The notes beneath the pieces are model-generated. The model was given only the letters and a program-made list of their open reading frames with translations, was not told where the DNA came from and did no database searches. A DNA stretch of 33,382 bases from Verrucomicrobiales bacterium (GTDB taxonomy: Bacteria; Verrucomicrobiota; Verrucomicrobiia; Limisphaerales; UBA9464), in NCBI GenBank assembly GCA_016793645.1, contig JAEUHD010000206.1:1-33382 (forward strand), read 5' to 3'. The position numbers and the translations under genes are program-made. This document shows, piece by piece, positions 30,319 to 33,382 of the stretch (position 1 is its first letter; the number at the start of each line of letters is the position of its first letter).

Positions 30319-31230
30319 TTATGCGGAAGCCACCGGAAGGGAAACCGGAGGCAGGAGGATCGGGGAGAGGGACAGCGGCTCCGACGCCACGGAGCGCCGC
30401 GCGAATGCCTGCAGCCGCTCCTCGACCGACCGGATCAAGTCGTCGGGAGTGCTGGTCCCTGCCGTCAGTCCCACCGTATCCGTGGGCCGAAACCACTCCG
30501 GATCCAGGTCGGCGGCGGTCTGGATGTGATGGACCCGGGCACAGGATCGCAAACACGTCGCCACCAATTCGCGCGTGTTGTTGCTGTGGGCGCCACCCAG
30601 GACGACGACCACGTCGGATCGTCTTGCCAGGGATTCGGCGGCGGACTGGCGTTGCTTGGTGGGCAGACAGACGGTATCCCGGAACACGACCTCGCTCTGC
30701 GGAAACCGTCGCCGAAGGACATCGACCAGTGTCCGAACCCGGTCCAAAGGCTGGGTTGTCTGGGAAACCACCCCGAACCGATCCCGGGGCGCCATTCGAT
30801 CCACATCGGACTCGTGCAGGATCACGTCGCACTGCGGATGGTCCCCGGTCAGTCCCCGAACCTCCACGTGATCCCGCTGTCCGATCACGACCGGGTGATA
30901 CCCCCGTCGCACGAGGTCGCCCAGCGCGCGGTGGGCCACGTGGACCAGCGGACACGTGGCGTCCAGCATGCGCCTCCCCGAGGCGCGAATCTCCTCCCGA
31001 TGCCGGTCGCTCGTCCCATGGGCGGTGACCACGACCGTCTCCGTCGTCACGACCGCCAGATCGGTTTCAAGCCTCAACCCCTGCGCCCGGAGGCGTGCGA
31101 GGACGTGCTCGTTGTGGACCAGCTGCCCCAGAATCGTCGCCGGCCCCCGCGCGGCCTCGGCCTCCGCCAGCGCCAGGGCGTCCCGCACGCCGAAGCACAT
31201 GCCCAGATGATCAGCACGAAGTAGGTTCAT
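30319..31230 (-). CDS. ispH: 4-hydroxy-3-methylbut-2-enyl diphosphate reductase
   Basis: 303 residues. The three [4Fe-4S] ligands are C12 (GMCFGV), C93 (ATCPLV) and C188 (DTVCLPT). Substrate-binding residues are present: H39 region (QLVHNEHV), H71 in TAHGTS, H121 and E123 in QRDHVEVRG, and SNNTREL. The last MEP-pathway enzyme, making IPP and DMAPP from HMBPP. The tail of about 16 residues after the catalytic core is unusual but harmless-looking. No Shine-Dalgarno sequence precedes the ATG at 31230; instead there is a CTTTG-N5-CAAAG inverted repeat 11 bases upstream. The winged-helix regulator gene lies just upstream on the same strand. Confidence 0.96.
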   Translation of the reverse strand: MNLLRADHLGMCFGVRDALALAEAEAARGPATILGQLVHNEHVLARLRAQGLRLETDLAVVTTETVVVTAHGTSDRHREEIRASGRRMLDATCPLVHVAHRALGDLVRRGYHPVVIGQRDHVEVRGLTGDHPQCDVILHESDVDRMAPRDRFGVVSQTTQPLDRVRTLVDVLRRRFPQSEVVFRDTVCLPTKQRQSAAESLARRSDVVVVLGGAHSNNTRELVATCLRSCARVHHIQTAADLDPEWFRPTDTVGLTAGTSTPDDLIRSVEERLQAFARRSVASEPLSLSPILLPPVSLPVASA

Positions 31231-31240
31231 GGTGGATTCG

Positions 31241-31255
31241 CTTTGAATGGCAAAG
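31241..31255 (-). promoter_or_regulatory. Probable operator upstream of ispH
   Basis: CTTTGAATGGCAAAG: half-sites CTTTG and CAAAG separated by five bases, the same size and spacing as the palindrome at 32220-32236. Read on the minus strand, both are ACTTTG-N5-CAAAG followed within a few bases by an AATCC and the start codon. The likely binder is the winged-helix protein encoded at 31291-31599. Confidence 0.6.
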
Positions 31256-31290
31256 TAATTGAGTCTCTCCGGGGAGTGAAACGGGTGGGA

Positions 31291-31599
31291 TCAGGAGTGG
31301 CGCGCCTGGGCGACGATTTCCGCGAGGCGTTCAATATGGCGCTGGAATGCAGCGCGACCCGCCGTCGTCAGGGAGCACGTGGTCAGGGGACGATTGTCGC
31401 GGTACTCCTTGGTAATGGCGACGAACCCGGCCTCCTGGAGGGTCCGGATGTGCGTGGTCAGATTGCCGTCGGTCATCTGGAGTAGGTCGCGCAATTCGGT
31501 GAAGGACAATTCCGGTGTGGCGGCAAGCGCCGCCATCATGGCGAGCCGGCCCTTTTCGTGGACCACACGATCCAGTTGGAGGAAAGGCTCGGGGTTCAC
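31291..31599 (-). CDS. Winged-helix transcriptional regulator (ArsR/MarR-like, HTH_34-type)
   Basis: 102 residues from GTG at 31599, overlapping the upstream gene's TGA as GTGA. Helix-turn-helix: LSFTELRDLLQMTDGNLTTH, a typical winged-helix reading helix, then the wing with YRDNRPLTTCSLTTAGRAAF and a C-terminal dimerisation helix (ERLAEIVAQA). Members of this group of about 100 residues are often paired with a membrane protein, as here. It probably represses its own operon and ispH through the CTTTG-N5-CAAAG palindromes. The signal could be sensed by the adjacent six-TM protein. Confidence 0.85.
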   Translation of the reverse strand: MNPEPFLQLDRVVHEKGRLAMMAALAATPELSFTELRDLLQMTDGNLTTHIRTLQEAGFVAITKEYRDNRPLTTCSLTTAGRAAFQRHIERLAEIVAQARHS

Positions 31600-32213
31600 T
31601 GGTCCCGTTTCCTCTCCACCAGGAGCAGCCAGGCCCCGGCCGCGAGGTGGCCCAGGCCAAACGTGAGCGCCATGGCGAGATGTGCCTCGCGGATTCCGGG
31701 ACCGCCGACCCAGGGTCCCACCCCCAAGGAGATCAACCCGGCCGCAATGAACGCCCATCCGAGCAACCGGATGCCCCGGAGCGTGAAATGTCCCGCCGCA
31801 TGCAGACCGAGACCGTACAGGATCATCCAGGCCCCCGAGAGCGTCTCCGCCCGCGGAGGCGCGCCCTCCAGCAGCCGCAGGGCCGTTCCGACGACGGCGA
31901 CCGCGATGGGAGGAGTCATCGCGGACAGCACCCGCCGCGTCGGAGGCGTCCAGAACGGCTCCGCCGCCCCGAGGGCCTGACGCCGCACCCGGAACCCCGC
32001 CCACGCCACGGCCAGAACCGCCACCCCGGTCCAATACAGAACACAGTCCCGAGCCCCCCGCCCCCCCCAGCCCGCCGCCCCCGCGGATCCCGCCGCCATC
32101 CCGAGAATCCCAATCCCGACCAGCGTGGGCCCCAGCGCCCGTCGATACAGGGCCGCCCGCTCCATCAGGAGGCGGATCGTCTGCAATTGCTCCGCCGCCT
32201 GTCGCTCGTCCAT
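31596..32213 (-). CDS. Membrane protein paired with the winged-helix regulator
   Basis: 205 residues. Short cytoplasmic N-terminal helix (ERQAAEQLQTIRLLMERAALYR), then about six hydrophobic helices, including ALGPTLVGIGILGMAAGSAG, CVLYWTGVAVLAVAWAGF, TPPIAVAVVGTALRLL, GAWMILYGLGLHAAGHF, LLGWAFIAAGLISLGVG and ALTFGLGHLAAGAWLLLV, ending in a basic tail. It starts at 32213, just six bases after the palindrome at 32220-32236, and its stop overlaps the regulator's start. The pair is a known type of unit in diverse bacteria, but the function of the membrane partner is unknown; sensing or modulating the regulator is a reasonable guess. Confidence 0.75.
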   Translation of the reverse strand: MDERQAAEQLQTIRLLMERAALYRRALGPTLVGIGILGMAAGSAGAAGWGGRGARDCVLYWTGVAVLAVAWAGFRVRRQALGAAEPFWTPPTRRVLSAMTPPIAVAVVGTALRLLEGAPPRAETLSGAWMILYGLGLHAAGHFTLRGIRLLGWAFIAAGLISLGVGPWVGGPGIREAHLAMALTFGLGHLAAGAWLLLVERKRDQ

Positions 32214-32219
32214 GGATTT

Positions 32220-32247
32220 ACTTTGAGGCTCAAAGTGAACATGTCAA
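32220..32247 (-). promoter_or_regulatory. Promoter with overlapping palindromic operator of the membrane protein/regulator operon
   Basis: ACTTTGAGGCTCAAAGT (32220-32236) is a perfect palindrome of eight-base arms around one G. On the minus strand, TTGACA (32247-32242) is a perfect -35 box, and 17 bases later AAAGTA could be a weak -10 element. The palindrome thus covers the spacer and -10 region, as expected for a repressor site. The start codon is at 32213. Confidence 0.65.
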
Positions 32248-32345: not shown

Positions 32346-33382
32346 ATGAACTCCGCATTGATGTTCCTCAGAACGATCGGAACCCTGCTTGCATGCAGCG
32401 CACTGTGGGCCCAGCTCGCTGCCCAGTCGCCCGCGGCTCCTCCCCAGCGCAGCCAGGCGGAGCTGGAGACCCTGCTCGGTCCGATCGCACTGTATCCCGA
32501 CCCACTGCTGTCCATCATGTTGCCGGCGGCGTGCTATCCCCTGGAGATCGTCGAGGCGGCGCGCTTTGTGGCCAACACCAACAACATCCCCAAGATTGAT
32601 GCGCAGTCCTGGGACGTGAACGTCAAGAGCGTGGCCAAGATCCCGGCGGCCCTGGCCAAACTGAATGCGGATCTGACATGGACCTCAAACCTGGGCCAGG
32701 CGTTTCTGGATCAGCAAAAGGACGTCATGGACACCGTCCAACTCCTCAGGAACAAGGCCCAGGCTGCGGGAACCCTCAAGACCTCCGAGCAACAGATCGT
32801 GATCGTGACGAACATGGTCATGGAGAAGACGGTGGAGACCAAGGTCGTCGTGGTGACCAATACCATCGTCCAGATCGAGCCGGCCAATCCCCAGGTGGTG
32901 TACGTCCCGCAGTACGTCCCCTCCGCCGTCTACTACCCTCCGCCGACCTACAACCCGCTGACGCCGCTGATCACCTTCGGGGTCGGTGTGGCCGTCGGGG
33001 CGATCGTCGCCAACAACTGCGATTGGCACTACGGGGGCATCTATGTTGGCGGAGGCTGGGGCTACCACGGCGGCTACTACGGCGGCAACAACAACGTCAA
33101 CATCAACATCAACAACAACAACACGATCAACAATATCGGGAACAATAATAACATCGGGAACAACAACCGCCCCGGGACGGGTCCCGGGCAGGCCTGGAAA
33201 CCCGACAGCTCCCGACTGCGAACCGCCGGAGCTCCCGGCTCCGCAACCGCCTATCAGTCCCGGGAGGCGCGCGGGTGGGGTTCGTCGGCATCGGCACCCT
33301 CCGCGGCCACGATGCCCGGCTCCGGCAATCGCCCGGCCGCCTCGTCCTTCCCGGGAGGAGGTTCCCGGCCATCCACGGGCAC
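32346..33382 (+). CDS. DUF3300 family protein (3' end beyond the window)
   Basis: At least 345 residues, frame open to the edge. Sec signal peptide near residues 1-27 (MFLRTIGTLLACSALWAQLAA). The DUF3300 core is clear: ELETLLGPIALYPDPLLSIM, then a helical region with KIDAQSWDVNVKSVAKIPAAL and TWTSNLGQAFLDQQKDVMD, and the QVVYVPQYVPSAVYYPPP segment. A Gly/Tyr-rich hydrophobic part follows, then an Asn-rich low-complexity run (about 245-278) and a Ser/Pro/Gly-rich tail. Periplasmic or outer-envelope location is likely. Function of DUF3300 is unknown. Its start is 110 bases from the divergent operator at 32220-32236, which might affect it. Confidence 0.88.
   Translation, partial: MNSALMFLRTIGTLLACSALWAQLAAQSPAAPPQRSQAELETLLGPIALYPDPLLSIMLPAACYPLEIVEAARFVANTNNIPKIDAQSWDVNVKSVAKIPAALAKLNADLTWTSNLGQAFLDQQKDVMDTVQLLRNKAQAAGTLKTSEQQIVIVTNMVMEKTVETKVVVVTNTIVQIEPANPQVVYVPQYVPSAVYYPPPTYNPLTPLITFGVGVAVGAIVANNCDWHYGGIYVGGGWGYHGGYYGGNNNVNININNNNTINNIGNNNNIGNNNRPGTGPGQAWKPDSSRLRTAGAPGSATAYQSREARGWGSSASAPSAATMPGSGNRPAASSFPGGGSRPSTG

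Follow-up and report, generated by a model that had tools for sequence, protein, structure and literature searches.

Why should one palindrome stand both before an operon for a membrane protein and a small regulator and before ispH? In the window (the whole stretch of 33,382 nucleotides that was analysed, from a Verrucomicrobiales bacterium), CTTTG-N5-CAAAG occurs twice, at 31241-31255 (CTTTGAATGGCAAAG) and 32221-32235 (CTTTGAGGCTCAAAG), exactly where the original prediction had placed the pair. The chance expectation for the window is 0.01, and none of 100 shuffles contained two sites. The gaps to the start codons, 7 nt from the first operator (O1) to the six-TM ATG (32213) and 10 nt from the second (O2) to the ispH ATG (31230), agree with the predicted 6-11 bases. 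It had also been pointed out that both sites lie on the same strand, which is true but trivial, the site being a palindrome. The locus reads as follows.

32242..32247, minus strand: -35 element TTGACA, 16 nt before CAAAGT (the right operator half taken as the -10)
32220..32236, no strand assigned: operator O1, ACTTTGAGGCTCAAAGT, before the six-TM/regulator operon, where it occupies the predicted promoter spacer and -10
31596..32213, minus strand: six-TM membrane protein, 205 aa, with a conserved N-terminal helix L..IRtLMER...YR
31291..31599, minus strand: HTH_34 (PF13601) winged-helix regulator, 102 aa, with a GTG start and a 4-nt overlap with the six-TM stop
31240..31256, no strand assigned: operator O2, ACTTTGCCATTCAAAGC on the minus strand, before the accessory ispH
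30319..31230, minus strand: accessory short-form IspH, 303 aa, a second LytB paralog, with Fe-S cysteines C12, C93 and C188 and substrate residues conserved

The genome-wide scan proposed with the original prediction was carried out as a set of pattern searches. The 5.87-Mb genome has three CTTTG-N5-CAAAG sites, two of them at the six-TM/regulator/ispH locus, and three is also what the reversed control yields; the number of sites alone is thus no proof, and it is their placement that carries weight. The third site (C322:3805) precedes YipA-YipB, the names that we give here to two polytopic membrane proteins.

Relatives from the same order, among them Verrucomicrobia, Limisphaerales and Pedosphaera MAGs, keep the gene order six-TM, regulator, ispH together with both operators (consensus ACTTTGYANTRCAAAGT). 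Across the class, counting sites that match at least 9 of the 10 core positions (at most one mismatch) within 150 nt of a gene start, an operator precedes 67 of 73 six-TM genes (reversed control 2, shuffle mean 0.3) and 54 of 66 ispH genes (reversed control 0, shuffle mean 0.2). Several of the apparent misses at ispH have an operator more than 150 nt upstream or a co-diverged version of it. The ispH copy of the site had been named as the one whose conservation mattered, and this comparison favours the original prediction. In 38 genomes, CTTTGYANTRCAAAG occurs at 29 sites (control 1), all but one of them at the module, and ACTTTGN5CAAAGT at 40 sites (control 11), of which 32 are at the module. 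The 8 sites outside it are no commoner than the 11 of the reversed control, and so are not counted as regulon except where orthologs repeat, as with YipA-YipB. Both operators of the pair are real and are conserved, and the comparative evidence indicates that they are functional. Chance palindromes were rejected on the window shuffles, the placement in the genome and the conservation relative to reversed controls.

Linkage to the regulator is not needed for an ispH to keep its operator. In one genome (G032) the six-TM/regulator pair has been relocated beside a carB-like gene (L030), with no operator nearby, and the lone ispH on a separate contig (L037) retains a perfect operator, ACTTTGTAATACAAAGT. 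Inserted DNA parts the regulator from ispH in two other loci (L098 and L116), and the operator stays before ispH. Operators also lie near distant regulator homologs in other Verrucomicrobiota classes, as exact sites in 9 of the 11 loci fetched. Some loci carry paired operators, 20 nt apart upstream of the six-TM gene in L115 and L116 and about 33 nt apart in L130, L133 and L191.

The position of O1 suggests how it could act. In 45 of 69 six-TM genes a TTGAC stands 12-13 nt ahead of the operator, and TTGAC or TTGCC is found at the same spacing in most relatives. With TTGAC at -12 or -13 and a 16- or 17-nt spacer, the -10 falls on the right half-site, so that the operator overlaps the core promoter predicted for the regulator's own operon. 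In 58 of the 69 the six-TM start codon follows the operator by 7-9 nt, which is where transcription would begin; thus, the six-TM/regulator mRNA is probably leaderless. The ispH upstream regions have a different element, GAAC-N15-18-[GC][GC]TC, in 20 of 59 cases (0.3 in shuffles), which resembles a promoter for an ECF-like sigma factor. In about 20 relatives (e.g., L029, L037, L040 and L095), a conserved TTGAAC-N16/17-GGTC lies just before the ispH operator. The window ispH promoter has no GAAC-N16/17-GGTC, and its -10 is therefore uncertain. We infer that the promoter geometry fits repression at both the six-TM gene and ispH.

Two other modes of action bear on this geometry. The palindromes are close to start codons (7-10 nt) and could form a short stem, and might therefore be an RNA hairpin that controls translation or senses temperature rather than a DNA site for a protein. 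We regard this as highly improbable, and rejected it, since the paired loop positions N1 and N5 do not covary (0.45 observed, 0.43 expected; 0.24 and 0.45 at ispH) and stem-breaking CTCTG-N5-CAAAG variants persist. Moreover, the folds in the window are unexceptional (z of +1.0 and -1.9), the ispH operator can stand over 100 nt away from its start codon, and at the six-TM gene a -35 lies at a fixed distance upstream. Alternatively, the regulator could activate, or could both activate and repress depending on its membrane partner. The ECF-type GAAC-N16/17-GGTC in a third of the relatives' ispH promoters leaves room for such a second input, but the operator overlaps the -10 and the predicted start rather than lying upstream, and a spacer of normal length needs no MerR-like distortion. 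We consider activation unlikely and repression the better reading.

Is the neighbouring regulator the protein that binds? Its autoregulation is assumed from operator position, and a different transcription factor, encoded elsewhere, could bind the operators with the neighbouring regulator as only one of its targets. The sites are almost confined to the six-TM/regulator/ispH module, recur near distant homologs of the regulator, and change together with its recognition helix, all of which makes a separate factor very unlikely. Recognition-helix His50 is replaced by Gln in only 3 of 73 regulators (L106, L109 and L110), and in those genomes the operators at both promoters shift from CTTTG to CTTTA: 10 of 12 half-sites are CTTTA, compared to 7 of 218 elsewhere. 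All three loci belong to one family (f32), so a Fisher test on this association overstates independence, and the replacement may represent one or two events in that family. A second clade (L056-L059 and L061) has CTCTG left half-sites at both promoters. Upstream of ispH in this clade, about 20 nt beyond the CTCTG operator, there is an extra half-site (TTGCAGAG or AATGCAGAG), which suggests a larger compound operator. Taken from these sequence comparisons, the neighbouring regulator is very likely the protein that binds the operators.

The regulator matches PF13601 over profile positions 2-80 of 80 (E of 3e-25, 88.5 bits against a cut-off of 27), above the gathering cut-off across the whole domain. 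Six hydrophobic stretches and a conserved N-terminal helix mark the six-TM protein, which matched no Pfam or NCBIfam family in profile searches. Foldseek with a model of it (pLDDT 84) returned nothing significant (best E 0.1, TM 0.41), and on these values a SatP acetate channel fold was rejected. The analysis supports the predicted cotranscription of a winged-helix regulator with a six-TM protein. The role of the six-TM protein as sensor and anti-regulator, which we suggest from the gene pairing, is the least supported step. PadR operons with HAAS-domain proteins likewise co-transcribe a small winged-helix regulator with a multi-spanning membrane protein, but they differ from this module in the DNA-binding family and the membrane protein, and the target here is a metabolic paralog. 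HTH_34 proteins such as the solved relative PH1061 (PDB 1ub9) share the family, the size and the GNL..H.R.L recognition region. A further parallel is an HTH_34 locus of Amycolatopsis (L063), in which a regulator 45% identical to this one also follows a membrane protein. There, an ABC transporter operon ends in the membrane protein and regulator, two operator copies (ACTTTGTGTTACAAAGT and ACTTTGCGATTCAAAGT) lie at the operon start, and there is no ispH.

Which IspH is controlled? The original prediction had the regulator tuning the final step in the making of isoprenoid precursors. Control of the window ispH by the regulator module is supported by the comparative evidence, but that gene is not the sole ispH of the genome. 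A PF02401 search found two LytB genes, the short one in the window and a long one elsewhere (G000:C362:5590-6624) that has no operator; IspG is encoded on C263. The long housekeeping form is about 415 aa, and a LytB, in most cases of this form, occurs in nearly every genome of the class. The gene controlled is the accessory IspH, not the housekeeping copy, and the original wording on the pathway step is unsupported. Among 141 genomes, the short form (E < 1e-70) is found in 35, all with the regulator; nine have the regulator only, 97 have neither and none has the short form alone (Fisher p of 4e-25, a value that ignores phylogeny and to which linkage could contribute in part). Genomes of the same genus (G001, G015 and G043) lack both together.

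It is conceivable that the short form is a LytB-fold reductase for another substrate and that the circuit is unrelated to isoprenoid precursors. It is additional to the long form, lies beside a diiron protein or the Yip proteins in relatives, and reads GGAHSNNT where E. coli has GSKNSSNS, with N in the neighbouring residue in place of S226. However, it passes the TIGR00216 equivalog cut-off (239 bits against 187.85), and its cysteines and substrate residues (C12, C93, C188, H39, H121, E123, T158, T191, S216, N218 and S260) are at least 95% conserved. Because the catalytic residues are intact, the short form is probably a true HMBPP reductase, and we think another substrate doubtful, though well worth keeping in mind. 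Mycobacterium tuberculosis also has two IspH homologs, LytB1 and LytB2. Both are active when expressed in E. coli, and LytB2 is essential with LytB1 no substitute, according to an excerpt of the source (PMC8837944), which describes no linked winged-helix/membrane module. The accessory copy described here differs from that pair in never being found without the regulator.

Other genes seem to share the operator. YipA-YipB is directly downstream of ispH in G031, G024, G027, G013, G033 and G022, and where it is unlinked (C322 of the same genome as the window, G005 and G029) it carries its own operator. The YipA of this genome (L003:774-1508) has no ATG near the operator and an in-frame ATT where the six-TM gene has its ATG; translation starts at a TTG within the operator or at the ATT, unless the assembly is in error. 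Loci without the short IspH have the second operator in front of a diiron AurF/rubrerythrin-like protein (L112 and L139) or a DUF4153 protein (L117 and L129, with a similar protein in L128). In L139/L202 (G090) the operator is directly before a diiron protein of this type fused to a B12-binding radical-SAM domain. Family f46 has the order operator, six-TM, regulator, operator, ispH, diiron protein, and 4 of the 11 loci fetched from other classes of the phylum have YipA-YipB or radical-SAM neighbours. The common theme of these targets is the cell membrane. In L131 (G063) the gene immediately upstream of a distant regulator/membrane-protein pair encodes a CreD inner-membrane protein (PF06123), which hints at a role in the envelope. 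Within the window, 32346-33382 encodes a divergent DUF3300 protein with a low-complexity stretch (GYYGGNNNVNININNNN), cut by the window end. Control of this gene was considered and rejected; among the loci searched, a homolog occurs only in the window's own. The other membrane genes apparently in the regulon, a target that seems to vary with lineage, and the predicted overlap of the operator with the -10 all go beyond the original prediction.

The comparison shows conservation of the operator at both promoters, its co-segregation, its persistence before unlinked ispH genes and its change together with His50; what we infer beyond this is binding, repression, a membrane signal, the direction of control and the physiological output. 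We propose, with a probability of roughly 0.78, an autoregulated, membrane-coupled one-component circuit in which an HTH_34 autorepressor with a membrane partner also represses an accessory ispH. The regulator would bind ACTTTG-N5-CAAAGT as a dimer. The operator of its own promoter falls within the spacer and -10 (TTGACA-16-CAAAGT), and binding there would block RNA polymerase, so that the operon represses itself. At the second promoter, an operator at the predicted start site would allow repression of the accessory paralog and, in many relatives, of the downstream YipA-YipB together with it. The co-translated six-TM protein probably senses the state of the membrane and captures or releases the regulator. 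Derepression could then supply additional HMBPP-reductase capacity together with envelope proteins at times when the membrane requires them.

We also speculate, as a tentative extension that is more probably wrong than right, that this is a phylum-wide membrane-sensing switch in which one regulator/membrane pair and a fixed operator are combined with interchangeable envelope genes (the accessory IspH, the AurF/rubrerythrin-like diiron protein, the B12 radical-SAM enzyme, YipA-YipB and DUF4153). Together these might make or maintain an undescribed isoprenoid-derived membrane component.

Among the papers searched none mentions PF13601 or HTH_34, and we found no description of an operator or regulon for this family; in searches that also covered the operator sequence, ispH repressors and paired ispH genes we did not find this circuit. 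If correct, the circuit would assign both a DNA operator and a regulon to PF13601 regulators. It would also be a case of transcriptional control dedicated to a bacterial IspH enzyme, of which we likewise found no description. The circuit offers a handle on why many Verrucomicrobiota retain two IspH enzymes, and it points to uncharacterised membrane genes that would share one switch.
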